Source: Rhodococcus tukisamuensis NBRC 100609 (GTDB lineage: Bacteria; Actinomycetota; Actinomycetes; Mycobacteriales; Mycobacteriaceae). From it: a stretch of 64,000 nt of DNA. The stretch is taken from the NCBI RefSeq assembly GCF_001894985.1, contig NZ_BCXG01000001.1, positions 62,001 through 126,000 on the forward strand. The letters are read 5' to 3'. The notes under the pieces are model-generated. The model did not search any database. It saw only the letters and a program-made list of their open reading frames with translations, and was not told the DNA's origin. A program made the position numbers and the translations under genes. Shown one piece after another: positions 5,513 through 29,398 of the stretch. The first letter of the stretch is position 1, and the number at the start of each line of letters is the position of its first letter.

Positions 5513-6609
5513 CGAGCGAACTCCATTTCCGTCTCCACGGCGGGCGCCGCCGCCGTCGGTGTGTCGGCGGACCTGCGCCTGCGGCGCAGCGCGAAAAGTC
5601 CCGCCACCCCGGCCGGGAAGAAGCCGACCACCACGATGAACAACAGGCCCTGGGCGTAGACCCAGCCGGACGGGAACGTCTCGGAGAACGCGCTCTGCGC
5701 CCAGGCCACCCCGATCGCGCCGAGCACCGGCCCCAGCAGGGTGGCCCGGCCGCCGATCGCGACGCCGATCAGGAAGGCGATCGACGGCACGATGCCCACG
5801 TCGGCGGGGGAGATGATGCCCACGATCGGCACGAACAGCGCGCCCGCGATGCCGGCGAAGAAGGCCGCGGTCACGTACGCGACGAGCTTGACGTTCGCCG
5901 GGTCGTAACCCAGGAACCGGACCCGCTCCTCCTGGTCGCGGACCGCCACGAGCAGTTCCCCGTAGCGGCTGTTCATCAGCTGGCGGGTCACGGCGACCAC
6001 CGCGAGCAGCACGCCGGCCGCGATGAAGAACAGCATCCGCTTGTTCGCGGGGTCGGCCAGGCTGAAGCCGAAGAATGTCCGGAACCTGTTGAGTCCGTTG
6101 CTGCCGCCGGTGCTCTGCTGGCCGATGAGCGCAATGGCGAAGGCCGCGGCCAGGGCCTGGCTGAGGATCGCGAAGTACGCCCCCTTTACCCGGCGCTTGA
6201 AGACACCGAGACCGAGCACGAAGGCCACCAGGGCGGGCAGCAGCAGGATCGCCAGGATCGTCACCGCCGGGGACGCGAACGGCGCCCAGTAGCCCGGCAG
6301 CGTCCGGATCCCCGCGATCTGCATGAAGTCCGGGACCTCGGAACCCTTGAGTTCGGCGTCGGCGATCTTCAGGTGCATGGCCATCGCATACGCGCCGATG
6401 CCGAAGAACACGCCCTGGCCGAGGGTCAGCATGCCGCCACGTCCCCAGGCCAGGCCGATGCCGACCGCGACGATGGCAAAGCACAGGAACTTGGCCAGCA
6501 GGCTGAGCCGGAAGTCGCTGAGGACGGCGGGTGCGAGGCCGAACAGCGCGGTGGCGGCCAGCGCGAAGCCCGCCCAGGTGCGGCGTGGGCCGCGGGTCAG
6601 GATGCTCAT
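5509..6609 (-). CDS. urtC: Urea ABC transporter permease UrtC
   Basis: A 366-residue inner-membrane permease of the LivM type with about ten hydrophobic segments. The family motifs GLAWGRGGMLTLGQGVFFGIGAYAMAMHL (split here by residues 55-83) and the cytoplasmic EAA-like loop AVRDQEERVRFLGYDPANVKL are present. It forms the membrane channel with UrtB. ATG 6609 overlaps the urtB stop as ATGA and its own stop overlaps urtD in the same way, so translation is tightly coupled. The Arg-rich C-terminus (RRRRRS) is cytoplasmic. Confidence 0.9.
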   Translation of the reverse strand: MSILTRGPRRTWAGFALAATALFGLAPAVLSDFRLSLLAKFLCFAIVAVGIGLAWGRGGMLTLGQGVFFGIGAYAMAMHLKIADAELKGSEVPDFMQIAGIRTLPGYWAPFASPAVTILAILLLPALVAFVLGLGVFKRRVKGAYFAILSQALAAAFAIALIGQQSTGGSNGLNRFRTFFGFSLADPANKRMLFFIAAGVLLAVVAVTRQLMNSRYGELLVAVRDQEERVRFLGYDPANVKLVAYVTAAFFAGIAGALFVPIVGIISPADVGIVPSIAFLIGVAIGGRATLLGPVLGAIGVAWAQSAFSETFPSGWVYAQGLLFIVVVGFFPAGVAGLFALRRRRRSADTPTAAAPAVETEMEFAR

Positions 6610-14835: not shown

Positions 14836-16482
14836 ATGGACCAGCAGACGACCACCGGTATCGAGGTCGGTGAGTTCGCGTCCGCCCCGGAGAAATTCCT
14901 GGGTGTGAGCATCAGTGAGATGGTGCGGCACTGGGCGTTGACCACCCCCGACGCGGTGGCATTCGTCAGCCCCGGCACGCGCGTGACGTGGGCCGAGTAC
15001 GACGCTGCGGCGGACCGCGTCGCGTCGGCGTTGGCGGTACTTCCGGACGAGCACGCGCCGGTGGCGCTGTACCTGCCGGACACCATGGTCTTCCACGCGG
15101 CGCTGTGCGGCGCCTACCGGGCCGGGCGCATCGCGGTCGGGATCGGATCGCGTTCGGGCATCAAGGAACTCGCTCACCTGATGGGCCGGGCGGGTTGCCG
15201 GACGCTGATCACCACCGGCACCCTGCGGGGTCAGGACAACGCCGGACTGGTCGACGAGTTGTCCACTCGGGCAGGCATTCCCGACAACGTCGTGTTCCTC
15301 GACGAGCGCGGCGGCGTGGACGTGCAGGTGGCCGACGGGCCCGGCGCGCGGCGCAAGGTGCAGGTGACCGAGCGCCGGTTCGCCGCCACCAGTCCACAGT
15401 TCTCCATCTCCGACGTCTCGATGCTCAACTCCACCTCCGGCACCACCGGACTGCCGAAATTGGTCACCCAGACCGAGGAGCGCTGGATCGCCTTCTCCCG
15501 GGTGGCGGCCGCGGCCGGCCGGATCGGCCGCAGCGACGTGTTCTTCGGGGCCGTGCCGGCGCCCTTCGGCTTCGGGCTGTGGACCTCGCACTTCCTGCCC
15601 GCGCTGCTCGGCGCCCCCAACGTGGTGATCGAACGCTTCCACGTCGACACGATGATCGACCTGCTGGTCAGCGAGCGGGTGACGGTGCTCAACTGCGTCA
15701 GCACCCAGTTCAAGATGCTGCTGCGCTCCGAGCACGGGCGCACCGCGGATCTCGGTGCGCTGCGGGCGATGTTCACCGGCGGCGAGGCGGTGCCGTACTC
15801 CGAGGCGCTCGCGTTCGAGGAGCGCACCGGGGCCGCGGTGCTGCAGTTCTACGGATCCAACGAGACCGGGGCGGTGAGCGTCACCACGGTCGACGACGAC
15901 CCCGATACCCGGCTGCGTACCTGCGGGCACGTCATCGACAACATGCAGGTGCGGGTGTTCGACGATGCCGGCGCCGAGGTTCACGGAGACCAGCGCCGCG
16001 GCCAGCCCGGCGTCAACGGCCCGCTGATGTGCCACGGCTACTGGGACGACGACGACGCCAACCGGGAGCTCTACACCGACGACGGCTGGATGCTGCTCGG
16101 CGACATCGTCGAGATCGACCGGGAAAACCGGGTGCGGGTGGTCGGGCGCAAGGCGGACATCATCATTCGGGGTGGCAAGAACATCTCCGCCGTGGAGGTG
16201 GAGGAGTTCGTGCGCGCCCACCCGGCCGTGGTGCTGGTCTCCGTCGTCGGCGTCGAGGACGAGCTGTTCGGGGAGAAGGTCTGCGCGGTCGTGGTCACCG
16301 AGGACGGCTCGGACCTGCCGACCGCGGAGCTGACCGGCTGGCTCACCGCGAACGGCGTCACCCGCGAGTACATCCCCGAGCACGTCGTCACCGTGGACCA
16401 GCTGCCGATGGCCCCCGGCGGCAAGGTCGCCAAGGGCGAGGTGAAGTCGCTGGCCGCCGCCCGGGTCATGGCGACCGCGTAG
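14836..16482 (+). CDS. AMP-forming acyl-CoA ligase / synthetase
   Basis: A 548-residue ANL-superfamily enzyme. The AMP-binding motif is NSTSGTTGLPK (about residue 195), the A5 motif YGSNETG, the A7 motif DGWMLLGDIVEID, the hinge GRKADIIIRGGKNISAVEVEE and the C-terminal catalytic Lys lies in PGGKVAKGEVK. It should adenylate a carboxylic acid and transfer it to CoA. As the last gene of the importer operon it probably activates the imported substrate. KstR2-type control resembles that of fadD3, which activates a steroid-ring propanoate in mycobacteria, but this protein is not clearly FadD3; the substrate is open. Confidence 0.85.
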   Translation: MDQQTTTGIEVGEFASAPEKFLGVSISEMVRHWALTTPDAVAFVSPGTRVTWAEYDAAADRVASALAVLPDEHAPVALYLPDTMVFHAALCGAYRAGRIAVGIGSRSGIKELAHLMGRAGCRTLITTGTLRGQDNAGLVDELSTRAGIPDNVVFLDERGGVDVQVADGPGARRKVQVTERRFAATSPQFSISDVSMLNSTSGTTGLPKLVTQTEERWIAFSRVAAAAGRIGRSDVFFGAVPAPFGFGLWTSHFLPALLGAPNVVIERFHVDTMIDLLVSERVTVLNCVSTQFKMLLRSEHGRTADLGALRAMFTGGEAVPYSEALAFEERTGAAVLQFYGSNETGAVSVTTVDDDPDTRLRTCGHVIDNMQVRVFDDAGAEVHGDQRRGQPGVNGPLMCHGYWDDDDANRELYTDDGWMLLGDIVEIDRENRVRVVGRKADIIIRGGKNISAVEVEEFVRAHPAVVLVSVVGVEDELFGEKVCAVVVTEDGSDLPTAELTGWLTANGVTREYIPEHVVTVDQLPMAPGGKVAKGEVKSLAAARVMATA

Positions 16483-16508: not shown

Positions 16509-17921
16509 TCAGTGGATCAGGTACGGCGAGACCGAGCTGCGGTGCTCGTTGATGTCGATGTCCTTGCCGAGCGGTGGGAAGGCGCGCTGCGGGCAGTTGG
16601 TCCGCTCGCAGACGCGGCAGCCGGCGCCGATCGGGGTGGCGATCTCTCGGTTGTCGAGGTCCAAGGCGTCCCCGTAGACGCTGCGGCCGGCGTGCCGCAG
16701 CTCGCAGCCGAGGCCGATGGCGAAGGTCTTGCCCGGCTGGCCGTACCGCACCGCGCGGCGCTCGACGGTGCGGGCCACCCACAGGTAGCTGCGGCCGTCC
16801 GGCATCTGCGCGATCTGGGTCATGATCTTGCCCGGGTACGCGAACGACTCGTAGACGTTCCACAGCGGGCAGGTGCCGCCGCTGGACGAGAAGTGGAAAC
16901 CGGTGGCGGACTGGCGTTTCGACATGTTTCCGGCACGGTCGACGCGGACGAAGGAGAACGGGATGCCGCGCTGCTTGGGCCGCTGCATCGTCGAGAGACG
17001 GTGGCAGATGGTCTCGTAACTCTGCGAGAAGAACGCGGAGAGCCGTTCGATGTCGTAGCGGAACTCCTCGGCCACGTCGTGGAACTGGCCGTACGGCAGC
17101 ACGGTGGCCGCGGCGAAGTAGTTGGCCAGGCCGAGCCTCGCCAGCGAGCGTGACGCGTCGGAGGTGAAGCTGCCCTCGTCGACGAGCTTGTCCAGCAGGT
17201 CGCCGCACTCGAGGAAGGCGAGCTCGGCCGCGAACTTGAACACCCGCTGACCGCCCGAGAGGTGCGGGGAGATCTCCAGGACCCGGCCGACGGGGTCGTA
17301 CCGGTGCAGGACACCCTCGCCGAGGTCGATGCGCTGGACGATCTGCACGTCGTGCACGGTCTCGAGACGGCGGGCGATCTCGCCCGCCACGTCGCCGCGG
17401 TGGAAGCGCATCCGCGCGGTGAGGTCCTCGGCGGCGGTGTCGAGCTCGTGCAGGTAGTTCTGACGCTGGTAGAAGTAGTCCCGCACCTCCTCGTGCGGCA
17501 TGGTGATCGAGCCGCTGCCGCTGCCGTCGCTGTACCGGTCCTCGGTGGCGGCGGCCAACTGCATCGTGGTGTTCCGGTACCGGCGGTGCATGTTGACCAT
17601 CGCCTTGGCCAGGCTCGGGTGTGCGGAGACCATCGCGGCGATCTCGTGGGCGTCGGCCTCGATGCCCATCTCCTGGTCGAGCGCGACCTCCCGCAGCTCG
17701 GCGATCAGGCGGGTGTCGTCCTGCGAGGAGAAGAAGCTGGTGTCGACGCCGAACACCTCGGTGATGCGCAGCAGCACCGGCACCGTCAGCGGGCGCACGT
17801 CGTGCTCGATCTGGTTCAGGTAGCTCGCCGAGATCTCCAGGGTCTGGGCGAGCGCGGCCTGGCTCATCCCACGTTCGCCGCGCAGTTGTCTCAGTCGCGC
17901 TCCCACGAAGGTCTTGGCCAT
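16509..17921 (-). CDS. ramB: Glyoxylate-pathway regulator RamB (XRE/ScfR family)
   Basis: A 470-residue regulator. Residues 8-62 are an XRE helix-turn-helix (LRQLRGERGMSQAALAQTLEIS, then ASYLNQIEHDVRPLT); the remainder is the short-chain fatty acyl regulator domain, ending in a conserved Cys-rich motif (CRVCERTNCPQRAFPP). RamB represses acetate and glyoxylate-cycle genes including aceA in Corynebacterium and Mycobacterium; placement 1.9 kb from aceA matches the mycobacterial order. A TAGCCT box ends six bases before ATG 17921 with no ribosome site, which suggests a leaderless mRNA. It converges with the acyl-CoA ligase. Confidence 0.9.
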   Translation of the reverse strand: MAKTFVGARLRQLRGERGMSQAALAQTLEISASYLNQIEHDVRPLTVPVLLRITEVFGVDTSFFSSQDDTRLIAELREVALDQEMGIEADAHEIAAMVSAHPSLAKAMVNMHRRYRNTTMQLAAATEDRYSDGSGSGSITMPHEEVRDYFYQRQNYLHELDTAAEDLTARMRFHRGDVAGEIARRLETVHDVQIVQRIDLGEGVLHRYDPVGRVLEISPHLSGGQRVFKFAAELAFLECGDLLDKLVDEGSFTSDASRSLARLGLANYFAAATVLPYGQFHDVAEEFRYDIERLSAFFSQSYETICHRLSTMQRPKQRGIPFSFVRVDRAGNMSKRQSATGFHFSSSGGTCPLWNVYESFAYPGKIMTQIAQMPDGRSYLWVARTVERRAVRYGQPGKTFAIGLGCELRHAGRSVYGDALDLDNREIATPIGAGCRVCERTNCPQRAFPPLGKDIDINEHRSSVSPYLIH

Positions 17922-17952: not shown

Positions 17953-17968
17953 GCAACCTATGGTTTGC
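17953..17968. promoter_or_regulatory. Possible RamB autoregulatory site
   Basis: GGCAACC TAT GGTTTGC is an imperfect inverted repeat about 32 bp upstream of the ramB start and contains TTTGC(A), the core reported for RamB sites. It sits near the expected -35 of the leaderless ramB promoter, and also upstream of the divergent lipase. Confidence 0.3.
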
Positions 17969-18034
17969 AGAATTAGCGGCGCGTGCCGCGGGCGGCTCCT
18001 ACGCTGGTGTCAGGTACAGCGAGGGGCGGCCGAG

Positions 18035-19336
18035 ATGGTCATCTCGAGGCGCCGGGTCCGCACCCCACGGGTCCGGCGACGCCGGGCGAACGGCGGGTCC
18101 GTTCGCTCGATGACCGCGGCGGCCGGGGCGGCGTTGCTGGTGTGCGCGCTGCTGGTGCCCGGCGCGGTCGCGGACCCGGATCCCGGCCCGCCGCCGCCGC
18201 GGCACGACGCCGCCGCGGTGGCCGCGACGCCGCTCGGCGACCGGTGGTTCGACCCGCCGCCCGGCTTCGGGTCCGCGGCCGCCGGCGCCGTCCTGCACAC
18301 CCGCCCGGTGGTGGTGTCGCCCCTCCCCGCCCCTGCCGTCTCCACCCAGCTCCTGGTCCGTTCCACCGACGCGAAGGGCCGGCCGGTGCCGGTCGCGACC
18401 ACCGTCATCGTGCCGTCCGCGCCGTGGTCCGGGGCGGGGCCGAGGCCGGTGCTGGCCTACAACATGGCCATCGACTCGCTCGGACAGGCCTGTGCGCCGT
18501 CCTGGACGCTCACCCATGGTGGCACGCTGGAAATTGTTGCCGTGCAGTACTTCCTGTCCCGAGGTGACGCAGTCGTGGTAACCGACCACGAGGGGCCGAG
18601 GCAGGCATACGCGGCGGGCCGGATGGCCGGTCACGCGGTGCTGGACGCGCTGCGCGGCGCCGTGCGCACGCCGGCGCTCGGACTGGTGACCGACGCGCCG
18701 ATCGCGATCGCCGGGTACTCGGGCGGCGCCATCGCCAGCGGCTGGGCGGCGGAGCTGGCGCCGACCTATGCGCCCGAGCTGAACATCGTCGGTGCGGCGT
18801 TCGGCGGCACCCCCGCCGACTACCGGATCCTGCTGGAGTCGATGAACGGGAAGAACCTGGCGTCCGGGGTGCTGCTGGGGGCGACGCTCGGGGTGGCCAG
18901 GGAGTACCCGGAACTGCTGTCCCTGTTCAACGAGAACGGCTGGCGTCTCGCCGAGGCCGCCCGGGACTTCTGCCTGCCCGCGCTGGGAGCCGCCGGAGCC
19001 CTGCTGCCGGTCCCGGTGCAGGCGCTGTCCGACGTCCCGCACGTCGTCGACACCCCGATTGCGCGGGAGGTATTGGCGGCGAACCGGTTGGGTGGGGCGG
19101 CGCCGACCGCCCCGGTGTTCCTCTACCAGGGGCAGCAGGACGTCTGGATTCCGCGGGAGAGCTCGGAGCACCTCTACGACGACTGGTGCGCGCGCGGTGC
19201 CAGGGTGCGACTCGAGGAGTACCAGGGCGAGCACCAGACGGTCGCACTGTCCGGTGCGCCGGTGGCCGCCGCGTGGCTCGACGCCCGACTCGCGGGTGTC
19301 CCGGTCGCGCCCGGTTGCAGCGCTCTCGGCAGGTGA
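18035..19336 (+). CDS. Secreted lipase (LIP family, PF03583 type)
   Basis: A 433-residue alpha/beta hydrolase. An Arg-rich N-terminus and hydrophobic segment (AAAGAALLVCALLVPGAVADPD) form a signal peptide. The nucleophile elbow is GYSGGAIAS, the acid residue lies in QQDVWIPRESS and the His in QGEHQT, as in secretory lipases of the LIP family that release fatty acids from triacylglycerols. Start chosen at ATG 18035 behind GAGGGGCGG. It is divergent from ramB and upstream of aceA: fatty acids it frees would feed the glyoxylate shunt, a plausible but unproven link. Confidence 0.82.
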   Translation: MVISRRRVRTPRVRRRRANGGSVRSMTAAAGAALLVCALLVPGAVADPDPGPPPPRHDAAAVAATPLGDRWFDPPPGFGSAAAGAVLHTRPVVVSPLPAPAVSTQLLVRSTDAKGRPVPVATTVIVPSAPWSGAGPRPVLAYNMAIDSLGQACAPSWTLTHGGTLEIVAVQYFLSRGDAVVVTDHEGPRQAYAAGRMAGHAVLDALRGAVRTPALGLVTDAPIAIAGYSGGAIASGWAAELAPTYAPELNIVGAAFGGTPADYRILLESMNGKNLASGVLLGATLGVAREYPELLSLFNENGWRLAEAARDFCLPALGAAGALLPVPVQALSDVPHVVDTPIAREVLAANRLGGAAPTAPVFLYQGQQDVWIPRESSEHLYDDWCARGARVRLEEYQGEHQTVALSGAPVAAAWLDARLAGVPVAPGCSALGR

Positions 19337-19832: not shown

Positions 19833-21122
19833 ATGTCGACCACCGGCACCCCGAAGACCGCAGCTGAGATCCAGCAGGATTGGGACACCAATCCTCGCTG
19901 GAAGGGCGTCACCCGTAACTACACGGCCGAGCAGGTCGTCAAGCTCCAGGGCACCGTCGTGGAGGAGGCCACCCTCGCTCGCCGTGGCTCGGAGATCCTG
20001 TGGGACCTCGTGAACAACGAGGACTACATCAACTCCCTCGGTGCCCTCACCGGCAACCAGGCCGTGCAGCAGGTGCGCGCCGGCCTCAAGGCCATCTACC
20101 TCTCCGGCTGGCAGGTCGCCGGCGACGCGAACCTCTCGGGTCACACCTACCCGGACCAGAGCCTCTACCCGGCCAACTCGGTGCCGCAGGTCGTCCGTCG
20201 CATCAACAACGCGTTGCTGCGCGCCGACGAGATCGCCAAGGTCGAGGGTGACACCTCGGTCGAGAACTGGCTCGCCCCGATCGTCGCGGACGGCGAGGCC
20301 GGCTTCGGCGGCGCGCTGAACGTCTACGAGCTGCAGAAGGCCATGATCGCGGCCGGCGTCGCCGGTTCGCACTGGGAGGACCAGCTCGCGTCGGAGAAGA
20401 AGTGCGGCCACCTCGGTGGCAAGGTGCTCATCCCGACCCAGCAGCACATCCGCACCCTGACCTCCGCGCGTCTCGCGGCCGACGTCGCGGACGTCCCGAC
20501 GGTCGTCATCGCGCGTACCGATGCCGAGGCCGCCACCCTGATCACCTCCGACGTGGACGAGCGCGACCGCCCGTTCCTCGACGGCACCCGCACGGCCGAG
20601 GGCTTCTACGGCATCAAGAACGGCATCGAGCCCTGCATCGCTCGCGCCAAGGCCTACGCGCCGTACTCCGACCTCATCTGGATGGAGACCGGCGTGCCGG
20701 ACCTCGAGGTCGCCAAGAAGTTCGCCGAGGCCGTCCGCAGCGAGTTCCCGGACCAGCTGCTGGCCTACAACTGCTCCCCGTCCTTCAACTGGAAGCAGCA
20801 CCTGGACGACGCGACCATCGCGAAGTTCCAGAAGGAGCTCGGCGCGATGGGCTTCAAGTTCCAGTTCATCACCCTGGCCGGCTTCCACTCGCTCAACTAC
20901 GGCATGTTCGACCTGGCGCACGGCTACGCCCGCGAGGGCATGACCGCCTTCGTCGACCTGCAGGAGCGCGAGTTCAAGGCCGCCGAGGAGCGTGGCTTCA
21001 CCGCCATCAAGCACCAGCGTGAGGTCGGCGCCGGCTACTTCGACAGCATCGCCACCACGGTCGACCCGAACACCTCCACGGCGGCGCTGAAGGGCTCCAC
21101 CGAAGAGGGCCAGTTCCACTAA
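19833..21122 (+). CDS. aceA: Isocitrate lyase
   Basis: A 429-residue TIM-barrel enzyme that splits isocitrate into glyoxylate and succinate, the first step of the glyoxylate shunt, in the cytoplasm. The catalytic signature [11 protein letters not shown] has the active Cys at residue 191, the same position as in M. tuberculosis Icl1. Other active-site segments are intact ([23 protein letters not shown] near the N-terminus in part; [19 protein letters not shown]). Length matches the short prokaryotic Icl1 class. A GGAG ribosome site precedes ATG 19833. Likely regulated by RamB and GlxR from the upstream sites; a strong hairpin follows. Confidence 0.96.
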
Positions 21123-21192: not shown

Positions 21193-21291
21193 GTGCCGGA
21201 GTCCGAGGCTTTTGGAAGTACCCGGCGAGTTACCCATGTGCTCGCCAAATCTTTTGTCACCGAAGCGCAGTCAAGGTTGAGGAGATACGAC

Positions 21292-22188
21292 GTGACCAGC
21301 GAAAAGATTCAGCGCGTCGGCGTGATCGGCGCCGGGATCATGGGTTCCGGAATCGCCGAGGTGTGCGCCCGCGCCCATGTCGACGTTCTGGTGTTCGAGC
21401 AGACCCGCGAGCTCGCAGCCGCCGGCCGTTCACGCATCCTGCGCTCGCTCGACCGTGGCGTGAGCAGCGGCAAGATCACCGAGCGTGAGCGTGAGCAGGC
21501 CGCCTGGCGCCTGCGCTTCACCTCCGATCTCGGCGACTTCGCGGACCGACAGCTCGTCGTGGAGGCCGTCCTCGAGGACGAGAAGATCAAGAGTGAGATC
21601 TTCGCCGAACTCGACTCCATCGTCACGGACCCGAACGCTGTGCTGGCGTCCAACACGTCGTCGATCCCGATCATGAAGCTCGGCATCACCACCAAGCGTC
21701 CCGAGCGCGTCATCGGCATGCACTTCTTCAACCCGGTTCCGGTCCTGCCGCTCGTCGAGTTGGTGACGACGCTCAAGACCAGCGCCGCCGTCGCCGAGCG
21801 CGCGGAGGCCTTTGCCAGCGACATCCTCGGCAAGCAGGTCGTCCGGTCGGCCGACCGTTCGGGCTTCGTCGTCAACGCGCTGCTGGTTCCGTACCTGCTC
21901 TCCGCGATCCGCATGGTGGAGTCCGGTTTCGCCACCAAGGAAGACATCGACAAGGCGACGGTCCTCGGCCTCGCGCACCCGATGGGTCCGCTCGCGCTGA
22001 CCGACCTGGTGGGCCTGGACACCGTCAAGTCCATCGCCGACTCGATGTACGAGGAGTTCAAGGAACCGCTCTACTCGGCGCCCCCGCTGCTCCTGCGCAT
22101 GGTCGAGGCCGGACTGACCGGAAAGAAGTCGGGTGCCGGCTTCTACGAGTACGGCGAGAACGGCCGCGCCAGCAAGCAAGCCAGCTAG
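21292..22188 (+). CDS. fadB2: 3-hydroxybutyryl-CoA dehydrogenase FadB2
   Basis: A 298-residue NAD(P)-dependent 3-hydroxyacyl-CoA dehydrogenase. The Rossmann motif GVIGAGIMGSGIAEVCA is at residues 8-24; the catalytic His lies in GMHFFNPVPVLPLVELV, preceded by SNTSSIPI, and the C-terminal dimer domain follows (LGLAHPMGPLALTDLVGLD). It interconverts acetoacetyl-CoA and 3-hydroxybutyryl-CoA. Start chosen at GTG 21292 eight bases after GAGGAG; an in-frame ATG at 21193 would overlap the aceA terminator arm. The aceA-fadB2 order is conserved in mycobacteria and suits fatty-acid and acetate growth. Confidence 0.92.
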   Translation: MTSEKIQRVGVIGAGIMGSGIAEVCARAHVDVLVFEQTRELAAAGRSRILRSLDRGVSSGKITEREREQAAWRLRFTSDLGDFADRQLVVEAVLEDEKIKSEIFAELDSIVTDPNAVLASNTSSIPIMKLGITTKRPERVIGMHFFNPVPVLPLVELVTTLKTSAAVAERAEAFASDILGKQVVRSADRSGFVVNALLVPYLLSAIRMVESGFATKEDIDKATVLGLAHPMGPLALTDLVGLDTVKSIADSMYEEFKEPLYSAPPLLLRMVEAGLTGKKSGAGFYEYGENGRASKQAS

Positions 22189-22215
22189 CCAGAGACACAC
22201 ACTGGTATGCGCCCC

Positions 22216-22266
22216 GCGCCCGTGCGCCTTTTCACAGCTGTGACAGTGAAAATGGTGCACGGGCGC
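22216..22266. other. Long two-part stem-loop between fadB2 and the MetE-like gene
   Basis: GCGCCCGTGC (22216-22225) pairs perfectly with GCACGGGCGC (22257-22266); inside, TTTTCAC (22229-22235) pairs with GTGAAAA (22246-22252). The apex holds TCACAGCTGTGA, a 12-bp palindrome (22232-22243). It starts 28 bp after the fadB2 stop, so a terminator is likely, but the two helices and the nested palindrome could also be a regulatory leader for the next gene. Confidence 0.6.
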
Positions 22267-22345
22267 GCAGCGCATCACGGGCAGTGACATTTCGGCGGCA
22301 GTGAACATCTAGACGGCAGCGACACATCACGGAGAGGTCGACACG

Positions 22346-24640
22346 ATGACCAGCAGCGCAGCCACCTACGGCTCCAGCATCCTGGGCTACCCGCGGATCG
22401 GACCCCGACGCGAACTCAAGCGCGCACTCGAGGCGTACTGGCATGGCAAGAGCACCCAGGCGGAGCTCGTCGCGGTCGGCCGCGAGCTGCAGGAGCAGAC
22501 CTGGAGCGAGCTCGCCGCGACCGGCCTGACGCAGGTGCCCGGCAACACGTTCTCCTACTACGACCACGTCCTCGACAACGCGATGCTCTTCGGGGCGGTG
22601 CCGACCCGGTTCGCGCCGCTGCAGGGCGAGCTCGACGAGCTGGACTTCTACTTCACCATGGCCCGCGGCCGGCCCGACTTCCCGCCGCTCGAGCTGGTCC
22701 GGTACATCGACACGAACTACTACTACCGTCAGCCCGAGCTGGACGAGGGCACCGAGTTCTCGCTGCACTCCGACGCCCTGATGGACGAGTTCGCGCGGGC
22801 CAAGGCGCGCGGCATCGAACTGCGTCCCGTCGTGCTCGGCCCGGTCTCGCTGCTGCTTCTCTCCAAGGTCGGTCCTGGTGCGGCGGAAGGGTTCTCGACC
22901 CTCGACCTGCTCGAGCCGCTGCTGGTGCAGTACGAGGCGCTGTTCGAGAAGCTCGCCAAGGCCGGCGCCACCTGCATCCAGCTCGACGAGCCGGCGTTCA
23001 CCCAGGACCGCACCGCCGACGAGCTGGACGCCCTGCGGCGCGCCTACGCGACGCTCTCGCATGCGCCGCTGCGCCCGCGGATCCTGGTCACCGGCCCGTA
23101 CGGCAACCTCGGCGAGGCCCTGCCGATCCTGGCTGCCACCCAGGTCGAGGCGCTCGGTCTCGACCTGGTCTACGGCAAGGTCGGCCCAGAGGAACTGGCG
23201 AAGATCCCCGGGCTCAAGCGCAAGCGCATCTACGCCGGCGTCGTCAACGGCCGCAACGTCTGGCGCAGCGACAACGTCAGCAAGCTGACCTATCTCGCGG
23301 CCCTCAAGGACGTGATCCCGGACCTGGTCGTCTCCACGTCCTGCTCGCTGATGCACGTCCCGTACGACGTGCTGGCCGAGTGGGACCTCGCCGGCGACGT
23401 CGCGGACCGGCTGGCCTTCGCGAAGCAGAAGGTCGGCGAGGTGGTCTCGCTGGCCAAGGCGCTCAGCGAGGGGCCGTCGGAGCGCTGGCGCAAGAAGCCG
23501 ACGTCGGTGCACTTCAAGCAGAAGCACGAGGTGCGCCAGCGGGTCAACAACATCAAGGACTCGGACCGGGTCCGTGCGCCGTACGAGGAGCGTCGGGTCG
23601 CGCAGCAGCAGCGGCTGAACCTGCCGAAGGTGCCCGCGACCACGCTCGGTTCGTTCCCGCAGACCGACGCGGCCCGCACCGCGCGGTACGAACTCGTCGA
23701 GGGCCGGCTCGGCCGGGACGAGTACGTCAAGCGCATCCAGGACGAGATCGAGCGGACGATCCGGCTGCAGGAGGACATCGGCCTCGACGTCCTGGTGCAC
23801 GGTGAGCACGAGCGCAACGACATGATCCAGTACTTCGCCGAGCTGATGGACGGATTCGCGTTCACGCACAACGGCTGGGTGCAGGCCTACGGCAGCCGCT
23901 GTGTGCGTCCGCCGATCCTGTTCGGCGACGTGCTCCGGCGCGGACCGATGACCGTCGAGTGGGCCACTTACGCGCAGTCGCTCACCGACAAGCCGGTCAA
24001 GGGCATGCTCACCGGCCCGGTCACCATGCTGGCCCGCTCGTTCGTCCGGCAGGACCAGCCGTTGCACGAGACGGCCGACCAGCTGGCGCTGGCGATCCGA
24101 GACGAGGTCGCGGACCTCGAGGCCGCCGGCATTGCGATCATCCAGGTCGACGAGCCGGCGATCCGTGAGCTGCTGCCACTGCGGGCGGGTGGGCGGACCG
24201 AGTACCTGGGCTGGGCCGTCGACGCCTTCCGGCTGGCGACCGGTGGCGCCAAGCCGGAGACGCAGATCCACACCCACCTGGCCTACACCAGTCAGGCCTC
24301 GGTGGTCGATGCCATCGAGCGGATGGACTGCGACGTCACCGCGATCGTGGCGACCCGTTCGATCTCCTGGGTGCTCGAGGCCATCAAGGAGCGCAAGCTC
24401 ACCCACGGTGTGGGACCCGGTGTGTACGAGAGCCGCTCGGCGCGGATCCCGGACATCGACGAGCTCGACGAGTTGCTCAGCGAGGCAGCGAAGTCGGTGG
24501 AGCTGGACCGGCTCTGGGCGAACCCGGACGGTGGTCTCAAGACCCGGCACTACTGGCAGCTCGAGCCGGCGCTGCGCAACATGGTGGCGGCGGCCCGGCG
24601 GCTGCGTCGCCGGGACGAGCTGGCGAGCAGCGCGTCATAG
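22346..24640 (+). CDS. MetE paralogue (cobalamin-independent methionine synthase family) lacking zinc ligands
   Basis: A 764-residue protein, full MetE length, with both MetE barrels: N-terminal GYPRIGPRRELKRALEAYW and C-terminal LGSFPQT, HGEHERNDMIQYF, KGMLTGPVTM and IIQVDEPAIRE. Key catalytic residues of the C-terminal site are replaced. HTHMCY of true MetE is HTHLAY (Ala 646 for the zinc Cys), IETSRS is IVATRS (Val 668 for the zinc Glu), NPDCGLKTR is NPDGGLKTR (Gly 729 for the zinc Cys), and YDIHSP is YESRSA (Arg 697 for the catalytic His). Only one zinc ligand (His 644) remains. Folate-side motifs are kept. It is therefore unlikely to methylate homocysteine by the known zinc mechanism. 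It is a lone gene followed by a strong terminator. Confidence 0.88.
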   Translation: MTSSAATYGSSILGYPRIGPRRELKRALEAYWHGKSTQAELVAVGRELQEQTWSELAATGLTQVPGNTFSYYDHVLDNAMLFGAVPTRFAPLQGELDELDFYFTMARGRPDFPPLELVRYIDTNYYYRQPELDEGTEFSLHSDALMDEFARAKARGIELRPVVLGPVSLLLLSKVGPGAAEGFSTLDLLEPLLVQYEALFEKLAKAGATCIQLDEPAFTQDRTADELDALRRAYATLSHAPLRPRILVTGPYGNLGEALPILAATQVEALGLDLVYGKVGPEELAKIPGLKRKRIYAGVVNGRNVWRSDNVSKLTYLAALKDVIPDLVVSTSCSLMHVPYDVLAEWDLAGDVADRLAFAKQKVGEVVSLAKALSEGPSERWRKKPTSVHFKQKHEVRQRVNNIKDSDRVRAPYEERRVAQQQRLNLPKVPATTLGSFPQTDAARTARYELVEGRLGRDEYVKRIQDEIERTIRLQEDIGLDVLVHGEHERNDMIQYFAELMDGFAFTHNGWVQAYGSRCVRPPILFGDVLRRGPMTVEWATYAQSLTDKPVKGMLTGPVTMLARSFVRQDQPLHETADQLALAIRDEVADLEAAGIAIIQVDEPAIRELLPLRAGGRTEYLGWAVDAFRLATGGAKPETQIHTHLAYTSQASVVDAIERMDCDVTAIVATRSISWVLEAIKERKLTHGVGPGVYESRSARIPDIDELDELLSEAAKSVELDRLWANPDGGLKTRHYWQLEPALRNMVAAARRLRRRDELASSAS

Positions 24641-24735: not shown

Positions 24736-26253
24736 CTACGCGCCGGAGCTGCCCGCGCTGCCGGAGGATCCGGCCGAGCCCGAGTCTCCGTCGCCGGCGG
24801 GCAGTTCTGCGCCGGCGGAGCCGGGACGGTTGACCTTGACGGTGACGGGGCCGGTCCCGCTGGCTTGGACGGTGACCAGACGGGCACCCGGCGCCGAGGT
24901 GATCGTGCCGCCTTCCGCCGCGGCCACGTAGCCGTCGGGGTAGTGCAGGTCGGAGACGTAGATCTCGGTGGGCTTGGTCGAGGACTTCGGGGTGTACCGG
25001 TAGATGAAGTCGCCGTTGTCGGCGTTGAACTTCATCTTCCCGGGAGTGCCCGCGGTGGCCTGCGGGTAGGTGCGCACCAGCTGCGGGCCGATCGCTCCGA
25101 GGAACGGGTCGGTGCCGCCGCCGGGGCCGAAGATGCTGCTGTAGTGCCAGTACTGCCAGCCGACGAAGCGTTCGTCGGCGCGCTTGAGGGTGTTGGCCAG
25201 CACGGTCGGGTCGCCGTCACCGAACTCGGTCACCACGGTGGGGATGTCGGCGCGCTCGGTGACCGCGTCGATGTTGGCCCAGGTGTTGCCCTGCGTAGTG
25301 GTGCACAAGGCCTTCAGCCCCTCCGGCAGGCCCAGGTAGATCGCGAGCTGGCTGGGAATGCAGTAGTCGTGCGGGGCGAAGACGATGTTCGGGTCGGTGA
25401 TGGGCGGGGTCTTCGGCGGGTTGGCCAGGTTGGACGGCATCAGCTGGTTCCAGGTGACGTTCGGTTCCCAGTAGACCGGGACCGCCGGGTCGGCGGCGCG
25501 GACCGCGTCGGTGAGCTTCTGCATCGCCGCCTGGTACTTCCGGTCGAAGTCCGGGCAGCCGCCAGGGAAGCAGGTGAGGAAGGGTGAGCCGGGCCACGGC
25601 TCGTTCATCAGCTCGATGCCCATCACGCCGGGCTTGCCCCTCACCTCGGTGGCGAGCGCGGCGAGCGCGTCGCCGAGGTAGTCGAGGGCGCCGTGGGTGT
25701 TGTTCCAGACCTCGTCCCAGCCCCTGTTCATGCTGGGCATCAGGTTGTAGAGCGGGAAGCCGGGGTTCGGCTCGCCTGCGGTGGGCCGGGCCTCGATCGC
25801 CCAGGCGGGAAAGCCGTTGCCGGTCCAGGGCTTCGAGAGCCCGTCCTGGTGGTTGTCGAGCAGGACCTGGATGCCGCGGGCGGCGAGCACGTCGACGGTG
25901 TCGGCGACCCGGCCGAGGTAGGCGTCGTCGATCTGGCCCCGCTCCGGCATGATCGCGTCGAACGAGACCCCGAGACGGACGGTGTTGAACCCGTGCTGGG
26001 CGAGCAGGTCGGCATCCTGAGGCGTGACCGTGAGACCGTCGCCGGCATTGAGGTACGGCGCCTCCTTGTCGACGTTGTTGACGCCGTGCAGCAGGACGGT
26101 GCGGCCGAACTCGTCGACCAGCGCGCTGCCCTGGGAGTGGAGTTTGCCCGCGGGCGCCGGGGCGAGGCCCTGGGCGCCGGCGACGAGCGGCGCCGCGGAC
26201 ATGAGGCCGCCGATCACCGCGGTTGCGATTCCTAGCGAAAGTAGCCTGCGCAT
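24736..26253 (-). CDS. Secreted glycoside hydrolase family 5, endoglycoceramidase-like
   Basis: A 505-residue secreted enzyme. Residues 1-28 form a signal peptide (Arg pair, hydrophobic core, cleavage near VAGAQG). The GH5 barrel has the acid/base Glu in GIELMNEPWPG and the nucleophile Glu in VVTEFGDGD, with LLDNHQDGLS and FAPHDYC also conserved. The C-terminal beta domain (PTEIYVSDLHYPDGYVA...VTVKVNRPG) is that of rhodococcal endoglycoceramidases, which cut glycans from glycosphingolipids. It ends in a Ser/Gly tail. A good ribosome site (GAGGAGACAG) precedes the ATG. Exact glycolipid specificity cannot be told. Confidence 0.8.
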   Translation of the reverse strand: MRRLLSLGIATAVIGGLMSAAPLVAGAQGLAPAPAGKLHSQGSALVDEFGRTVLLHGVNNVDKEAPYLNAGDGLTVTPQDADLLAQHGFNTVRLGVSFDAIMPERGQIDDAYLGRVADTVDVLAARGIQVLLDNHQDGLSKPWTGNGFPAWAIEARPTAGEPNPGFPLYNLMPSMNRGWDEVWNNTHGALDYLGDALAALATEVRGKPGVMGIELMNEPWPGSPFLTCFPGGCPDFDRKYQAAMQKLTDAVRAADPAVPVYWEPNVTWNQLMPSNLANPPKTPPITDPNIVFAPHDYCIPSQLAIYLGLPEGLKALCTTTQGNTWANIDAVTERADIPTVVTEFGDGDPTVLANTLKRADERFVGWQYWHYSSIFGPGGGTDPFLGAIGPQLVRTYPQATAGTPGKMKFNADNGDFIYRYTPKSSTKPTEIYVSDLHYPDGYVAAAEGGTITSAPGARLVTVQASGTGPVTVKVNRPGSAGAELPAGDGDSGSAGSSGSAGSSGA

Positions 26254-28534: not shown

Positions 28535-29398
28535 TCAGGACTGCGCCAGTCGCGCCTTCTCCACCTCGATGTCGAAGTTGGCGGGCGGCCAGTCCAGGTC
28601 GAGCCGCTCGAGTGCGTCGATGAGCAGTTCGGTGACCGCGAGCCGGCTGTACCACTTGCGGTCGCACGGCACCACGTGCCACGGCGCGTAGTCGGTCGAG
28701 GTGCGGTCCAGCATGGCCTGGTAGGCCTCCTGGTACTTCGGCCAGTACCCGCGTTCGGTGACGTCGCCGGGGTTGTACTTCCAGTGCTTGTCGGGGCGGT
28801 CCAGCCGTTCGGCGAGGCGCTCCTTCTGCTCGTCGAGCGAGACGAACATCGCCACCTTCACCAGCGTGGTGCCGGCGTCGACGAGTTCGCGTTCGAAGTG
28901 GTTGATCTCGTCGTAGCGGGGTTCCCACTCCGCCGGCGGCACCAGGTTGTGCACCCGCACCACCAGGACGTCCTCGTAGTGGGACCGGTCGAAGACTCCG
29001 ATCTGGCCGTTCCGGGGGAGTGCCTTGCGGATTCGCCACAGGTAGTGGTGCCGCTTCTCCTCCGCCGTCGGCACCCCGAACGAGGCGTGGTCGACGCCCT
29101 GCGGGTCGACGTGGCCGATCACGTGCCGGACCATTCCGCCCTTGCCCGCGGTGTCCATGCCCTGCAGCACCAGGAGTACTGACCGGTGCTCGTGCTCGGA
29201 CCGGCCGTTGGCGTACAACTTCTCCTGCAGCGACGACAGGTAGGCGCCGCGTTCCTCGAGGAGCTTCTCGCCCAGTTCCTTGTCGCCGACGAACCCCGGC
29301 GTGCCCCTGGTGTCGACCCCGGACACCCGGGTGTCCGGGGTGACTCGGACCGCCTCGACGGCGGGGACGTCCCAGCCCTGACTGGAGTTCTTGGCCAT
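28535..29398 (-). CDS. ppk2: Polyphosphate kinase 2 family protein
   Basis: A 287-residue PPK2-class enzyme that moves phosphate between polyphosphate and nucleotides in the cytoplasm. Walker A is LQGMDTAGKGGMVRH, Walker B is VFDRSHYEDVLVVRVH and the lid region reads HWKYNPGDVTERGYWPKY. This set fits the PPK2 class I/III enzymes, which phosphorylate nucleoside mono- or diphosphates; class cannot be fixed by eye. It is a single gene that converges with the small membrane protein and diverges from the monooxygenase. Confidence 0.88.
   Translation of the reverse strand: MAKNSSQGWDVPAVEAVRVTPDTRVSGVDTRGTPGFVGDKELGEKLLEERGAYLSSLQEKLYANGRSEHEHRSVLLVLQGMDTAGKGGMVRHVIGHVDPQGVDHASFGVPTAEEKRHHYLWRIRKALPRNGQIGVFDRSHYEDVLVVRVHNLVPPAEWEPRYDEINHFERELVDAGTTLVKVAMFVSLDEQKERLAERLDRPDKHWKYNPGDVTERGYWPKYQEAYQAMLDRTSTDYAPWHVVPCDRKWYSRLAVTELLIDALERLDLDWPPANFDIEVEKARLAQS

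Follow-up and report, generated by a model that had tools for sequence, protein, structure and literature searches.

The 64,000-nucleotide stretch of Rhodococcus tukisamuensis NBRC 100609 analysed here (contig NZ_BCXG01000001.1, positions 62,001 to 126,000; hereafter the window) contains, at 22346..24640 on the forward strand, a full-length relative of the methionine synthase gene metE whose product has lost three of its four zinc ligands. This gene, which we refer to as the zinc-less gene, belongs to a family that is real and conserved, and that is probably misnamed. Judging from its residues, the protein is very probably not a methionine synthase. The reading that we lean towards, with appreciably less assurance, is that of a neofunctionalised, conserved, metal-free MetE relative of acetate or ethanol metabolism, whose ligands would be an amino acid and a tail resembling that of folate.

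Zinc site and pocket residues

The gene is an intact open reading frame of 764 codons with an ATG start. Pfam places PF08267 at residues 10-323 and PF01717 at residues 430-751 of its product, that is, both MetE barrels at full length, and at E-values up to 0.001 the protein matches these two MetE families only. Solved MetE chains align over residues 10-760, the best being that of A. thaliana (1u1h, 675 bits). A preliminary sequence-only reading of the window had described an intact gene with both barrels, and reading frame, Pfam and the alignment to PDB chains all confirm it. An opposite-strand frame (22232-24550) overlaps the gene and is most likely the shadow frame usual in GC-rich DNA.

In T. 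maritima MetE, zinc is held by His618, Cys620, Glu642 and Cys704, as given in the part of PMC539065 considered here, our source for all T. maritima residues below. When PDB chains and the MetEs of other loci are aligned with the zinc-less protein, the four ligand columns (H-C-E-C) hold H644, A646, V668 and G729 (codons 24275..24277, 24281..24283, 24347..24349 and 24530..24532, all on the forward strand, as are those below), leaving His 644 as the only ligand retained, and R697 (24434..24436) occupies the place of the catalytic-loop His in the motif DIHSPR(I/V)P. The sequence-only reading had named these four replacements, and both its coordinates and its residue numbers are correct by alignment.

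To compare classes we aligned 113 zinc-less together with 42 canonical sequences, drawn from 166 matched loci by leaving out incomplete matches, duplicate rows and both copies of the window itself; the classes were split at 60% overall identity and not by site residues. C646, E668, H697 and C729 are present in all 42 canonical MetEs, which come from the same order, and in none of the 113 zinc-less sequences. Within the zinc-less class His 644 is universal, position 646 is variable (G, T, P, A, S, N and once E, never Cys), position 668 is Val in 110 sequences and Ile in three, and Arg 697 and Gly 729 are invariant (113/113 each).

The binding residues tell a different story from the metal site. 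In T. maritima, homocysteine is gripped at its amino and carboxyl groups by Ser411, Glu462, Asp577 and Met468, and this clamp is kept in every zinc-less sequence: S436, the carboxylate contact (23651..23653), E487 and D602, the amino-group contacts (23804..23806 and 24149..24151), and M493. The groove for the polyglutamate tail (Arg15, Lys18, Arg493 and Arg496 in T. maritima) is likewise retained, R22, R518 and R521 in all 113 sequences and K25 in 112. At the pterin site, formed in T. maritima by Glu583, Lys104 and Trp539, which stacks on the pterin ring, the outcome is mixed. E608, the equivalent of Glu583, is present in 110 of the 113 sequences. The stacking Trp, which maps to position 564 (24035..24037) through an equal 38-residue spacing to Asp577 in the PDB MetE alignment, is found in none of them (110 have Arg and one each Gly, Phe and Leu), and position 119, equivalent to Lys104, is mostly Arg (98/113; Lys in 12/113). 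The claim that the folate-side motifs are kept thus holds for the tail residues and E608, and fails for the stacking Trp and for position 119.

Five residues are newly fixed in all 113 zinc-less sequences: W675, E695, R697, G729 and C210. Overall, 22 positions are fixed differently between the classes (at least 95% in each), among them the conservative switch D695E and, in the other barrel, W210C. Nine of the 22 lie no more than two residues from one of 19 ligand positions mapped from the literature (p = 1.4e-4); with the ligand positions themselves removed, 5 of 18 do so (p = 0.02), which makes the clustering beyond those positions modest. Replacement zinc ligands elsewhere in the chain seem unlikely, as none of the switches gives the zinc-less class a new Cys, His or Asp near the site.

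A protein that has lost metal, loop His and stacking Trp and kept its binding residues is what a binding-only derivative would be expected to look like. Such a pseudoenzyme might bind a folate tail or an amino acid without catalysis, either sensing or buffering methyl-folate or an amino acid, or regulating MetE or MetH. We regard this as somewhat unlikely, given that R697, G729, E695 and W675 are fixed in all 113 sequences with no drift, which suggests a re-specified site.

Descent, distribution and selection

From a scan of public contigs we took the best 80 of 201 relatives, which are 70-90% identical to the window's protein and come from Rhodococcus, Nocardia, Skermania, Antrihabitans, Aldersonia and Smaragdicoccus, with a few metagenome-assembled genomes, one labelled Mycobacteriaceae. 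All 80 have His 644, a residue other than Cys at 646, Val or Ile at 668, Arg 697 and Gly 729. The same state recurs in 20 of 20 further stretches from twelve genus-level groups, at identities down to 61.5%; homologues with the same replacements, which the sequence-only reading had proposed to look for, are therefore plentiful, and the replacements are not sequencing error.

Of 251 sampled genomes from the Genome Taxonomy Database (GTDB) family, a MetE match at E <= 1e-100 was obtained in 205, and by hand count the zinc-less class (identity of at least 61%) is present in at least 140 of the 251; among the matches listed none falls between 55% and 60% identity. Also among the matches listed, the class was not found in groups g2 (by inference Mycobacterium), g58 and g81, and g5 has it in one genome only. 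A 150-genome sample of the order places all close matches (at least 72%) within the GTDB family. We read 47 of the 52 other places listed in that sample: in 45 the zinc site is complete and the loop His present, and the other two form a separate lineage (below). The peptide NPDGGLKT around G729 was searched for as DNA with the first two bases of an Arg codon, a pattern that misses variants; out of 396 genomes from the phylum it occurs in three, each of them a member of the GTDB family.

Groups g4, g5, g64 and g72 each contain genomes with and without the zinc-less gene, and repeated clean loss therefore seems likely. No remnant was found after fadB2 in any of 17 loci that lack the gene (about 1.5 kb seen; 17 of 25 fadB2 loci), and icl adjoins fadB2 in 15 of the 17. 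The place is taken by a CMAS-type methyltransferase in two of three g2 genomes and by an alcohol dehydrogenase in one g4 genome.

In a midpoint-rooted FastTree phylogeny restricted to the order, the zinc-less class forms one clade (support 0.99; 0.98 with two added sequences). Pairwise ratios of nonsynonymous to synonymous substitution (dN/dS; Nei-Gojobori, own script) for the window's gene are 0.14-0.18 against five congeners, compared with 0.09-0.12 for fadB2, and 0.17-0.36 against seven more distant relatives. The zinc-less clade is under purifying selection. Together with monophyly, the residues fixed across the class and the conserved synteny described below, these ratios give good support to the earlier suggestion of changed function and not decay.

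That a redundant metE has recently decayed in the source genome might be entertained because this genome has MetH and three of six genomes of the genus lack a canonical MetE. It is scarcely credible given an intact frame, identical replacements in 113 sequences of many genera and the low dN/dS, and also because a true candidate for decay looks different. Two group g27 genomes outside the GTDB family (loci L206 and L207) carry a frame of about 700 residues, 44% identical to the window's protein. His644 is gone from it, as are the Cys and Glu ligands, the clamp Ser and E608, and the frame ends before the last zinc Cys. The two pair together (support 1.0) inside the canonical MetEs of their own relatives, apart from the zinc-less clade, and neither icl nor fadB2 was found within the few kilobases examined around them. 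This lineage looks like decay or a different reuse. It indicates that loss of zinc from MetE is not confined to one lineage, and its loss of the clamp makes the clamp retained in the zinc-less class stand out.

Association with isocitrate lyase and fadB2

Upstream of the zinc-less gene, on the same strand, lie fadB2 (21193..22188), encoding a 3-hydroxybutyryl-CoA dehydrogenase, and icl/aceA (19833..21122), encoding isocitrate lyase. Across 100 zinc-less loci (the 80 named and 20 further, with at least one genome in both sets), fadB2 is directly upstream on the same strand in 97 and the pair icl-fadB2 in 93, and every exception is a contig end. The description of an acetate/fatty-acid block next to fadB2 was therefore right and applies family-wide, with icl and, in the window, a gene for a RamB-type regulator nearby. 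The latter (16512..17921, reverse strand) encodes a short-chain fatty acyl-CoA regulator with helix-turn-helix, M78 and ScfRs domains.

The gap between fadB2 and the zinc-less gene ranges from -73 to 588 nt (77 loci). In the window it contains a long, strong and GC-rich hairpin (22207..22275, forward strand; z = -5.2 for a 112-nt piece) that is terminator-like without a run of T. Of eight such pieces folded, seven, those from the window and six relatives, have a strong hairpin (z -3.0 to -6.1) with partly different arms; locus L019 has none (z +0.5), and a pattern search found the arm motif of the window's hairpin in 5 of 77 loci only. The zinc-less gene may be its own transcription unit. No RNA family was found in the window by Rfam at the gathering threshold.

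As to other neighbours, the RamB-type gene is convergent with one for an AMP-binding acyl-CoA ligase (14836-16479, forward strand), and a secretory lipase gene (17960-19333) precedes icl. Directly downstream of the zinc-less gene, on the reverse strand, is a gene for endoglycoceramidase I (24739-26253; NF051847, 843 against a cut-off of 700), relatives of which occur near the zinc-less gene in only some Rhodococcus-group loci. A polyphosphate kinase 2 gene (28538-29398, reverse strand) recurs near the icl-fadB2 block in several relatives.

Methionine supply and the metE label

The zinc-less protein resembles canonical MetE (EC 2.1.1.14; TIGR01371/NF003556) in its double-barrel architecture as read from sequence, its homocysteine contacts, its pterin Glu and its polyglutamate groove, and is about 47-56% identical to full-length canonical MetEs of the order. 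It differs from them in the replacement of the pterin-stacking Trp, the catalytic-loop His and all but one of the four zinc ligands, in its place behind icl-fadB2, in having no cobalamin riboswitch at the loci scanned (0 of 8, window included, as against 8 of 8 canonical metE loci), and in falling below the TIGR01371 cut-off. It scores 887 bits on that profile (cut-off 930) and 968 on NF003556 (cut-off 541). A canonical MetE of a congener passes both (1052 and 1083), and a distant family member, L135 (859 and 785), behaves like the window's protein. TIGR01371 thus separated the three proteins tried, and NF003556, whose cut-off admits the zinc-less class, is likely to be the source of the metE label.

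The check for a canonical metE or metH, also proposed by the sequence-only reading, gave a clear answer for the source genome: the zinc-less protein is its only full-length MetE, accompanied by MetH and one short PF01717 protein. The term 'paralogue' accordingly calls for caution; within the genus a canonical MetE co-occurs in three of six genomes (source included), all six of which have both the zinc-less gene and MetH. The short MetE-C-like proteins (PF01717 only, such as the 358-residue frame at L002 in the source genome) belong to the same barrel family. The L002 protein is half the length of the zinc-less protein, without the amino-terminal barrel, and has, by eye in the DNA, a His-Cys and a later Cys-Gly motif like those of the zinc site. 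MetH (PF02965) was also found in 49 of 49 genomes chosen because the zinc-less protein is their only listed full-length MetE, two of which are also among the six of the genus. In no tested genome is the zinc-less protein the sole candidate methionine synthase. MetH in every zinc-less genome tested is also in keeping with a binding-only role.

Could the protein nevertheless make methionine without zinc? An Arg-stabilised thiolate or another metal site might serve, and the protein would then be a low-sulfur or zinc-sparing stand-in under shortage of B12, zinc or sulfur. Such a role would agree with the retained amino-acid clamp, E608 and tail groove, with the NF003556 score and with the few Cys of the group g75 proteins (below). 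We consider it improbable: zinc ligands and loop His are lost in 113 of 113 sequences and the pterin-stacking Trp is gone as well, the TIGR01371 score is below cut-off, the synteny is with acetate genes instead of methionine genes, and MetH is present in all 49 genomes with the zinc-less protein only. A search of the 64-kb window for a Zur-like consensus box gave no match with up to three mismatches, which tells against this role and led us to reject a Zur-controlled, zinc-sparing (C-minus) paralogue.

The induced 'MetE' of R. qingshengii IGTS8

A protein of the desulfurising strain R. qingshengii IGTS8 is relevant here. In the part of PMC8557817 considered, the 'MetE' IGTS8_peg5907 (2 Cys, 7 Met) is 190-273-fold higher on dibenzothiophene than on sulfate and is among the ten most abundant proteins of the culture's sulfur proteome; it is published as a working methionine synthase, and its zinc site goes undiscussed in that part. 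Cys and Met counts together with gene order argue strongly, by way of two genomes of one genus-level group, that it is probably an orthologue of the zinc-less gene. Among the 15 genomes of that group (g75), the Cys count is 4-5 in canonical MetEs (12/12; three genomes are without one) and 1-3 in zinc-less proteins (15/15), which contain 5-10 Met; the zinc-less protein of genome G224 has 2 Cys and, start Met apart, 7 Met. According to the same source, pegs 5938-5940 of IGTS8, 31 loci from peg5907, encode a sulfatase, TauD and a ROK regulator. This cluster lies in the same order 26.6-26.7 kb from the zinc-less gene in G224 and G374 (Pfam-confirmed in G224), and in both genomes the distance from canonical metE to its nearest sulfatase is about 210 kb. 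The intervening stretch in G224 has 17 genes, a rough count from a strict finder that skips genes, against 30 expected from the peg numbers.

Dibenzothiophene was dosed from an ethanol stock (100 mM) to a level of 0.5 mM, amounting to 0.5% ethanol (PMC8557817), or about 86 mM by our arithmetic. For the sulfate cultures the methods, in the part considered, do not mention ethanol, yet the sulfur source is called the sole variable; isocitrate lyase goes unmentioned in the main text, to the same extent. The medium contained cyanocobalamin at 0.2 mg/l (PMC8557817), which should repress a riboswitch-controlled canonical metE. With ethanol as the solvent, a putative ethanol/acetate response of an icl-linked gene is a real alternative to sulfur sparing as the explanation of the induction. 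If the IGTS8 protein is indeed the zinc-less one, its abundance is high for a regulator and speaks against a binding-only role. The same dibenzothiophene culture is the only one in which 1-aminocyclopropane-1-carboxylate was annotated, a metabolite for which the genome has no known enzyme (PMC8557817, part considered).

What the protein may do

Under the reading that we favour, a metal-free enzyme of acetate or ethanol metabolism, two arginines (R564 and R697) would replace the pterin stack and the zinc chemistry in the pocket. The pocket would bind an L-amino acid with a non-thiol, probably anionic side chain. Beside it the pocket would take a polyglutamylated folate, or some similar ligand with a gamma-glutamyl tail, and metal-free chemistry would take place there. 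Gene order and the nearby RamB-type regulator suggest that cells growing on acetate, ethanol or fatty acids would produce the protein alongside isocitrate lyase and FadB2, and homocysteine methylation would fall to MetH or else to a separate MetE under riboswitch control. Uroporphyrinogen decarboxylase and other members of the UroD/MetE superfamily may serve as a precedent, with arginines lining an active site that holds no metal on a fold related to this one; they have a single barrel against the two of the zinc-less protein.

Several observations weigh against this reading. The terminator-like hairpin separates fadB2 from the zinc-less gene in the window and argues against assuming co-transcription with icl. 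The RamB-type gene is in the examined flank of only 24 of the 100 loci, on the opposite strand in 23 of those 24. A scan upstream with four exact variants of the RamB motif found none, and its 8-bp core gave one match with one mismatch in the 64-kb window, against 1.9 expected by chance. MetH is present in all six genomes of the genus irrespective of canonical MetE, and its presence is weak evidence. The induction in IGTS8 was interpreted by its authors as a sulfur response or sparing (PMC8557817, part considered), which would suit a zinc-free methionine synthase. Finally, the fixed pocket would also fit a non-catalytic binding protein.

On balance an enzyme with new metal-free chemistry seems to us a little better than an even proposition, and a pure binding protein a distinctly poorer one. 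A bolder form of the enzyme reading is offered tentatively, as possible at best: that these proteins constitute a new MetE-fold enzyme class, metal-free and Arg-based, in the C2 metabolism (acetate/ethanol/glyoxylate) of mycolic-acid bacteria, in which the former homocysteine clamp holds an amino acid and the former folate groove a cofactor with a gamma-glutamyl tail, and that the IGTS8 induction is its response, possibly to the ethanol solvent, and not a change from one methionine synthase to another.

A literature search over titles, abstracts and selected passages, with subscription papers mostly outside its reach, found no description of this zinc-less MetE family. Across a large group of industrial and clinical actinobacteria, pipelines label as metE a conserved gene without the residues of known MetE chemistry, so that metabolic models, essentiality calls and one proteomics reading, that of R. 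qingshengii IGTS8, may assume the wrong function. A MetE fold stripped of its metal and rebuilt in its pocket is a natural experiment in the conversion of a hard methyl-transfer enzyme, and its function can be put to the test through its close tie to isocitrate lyase.

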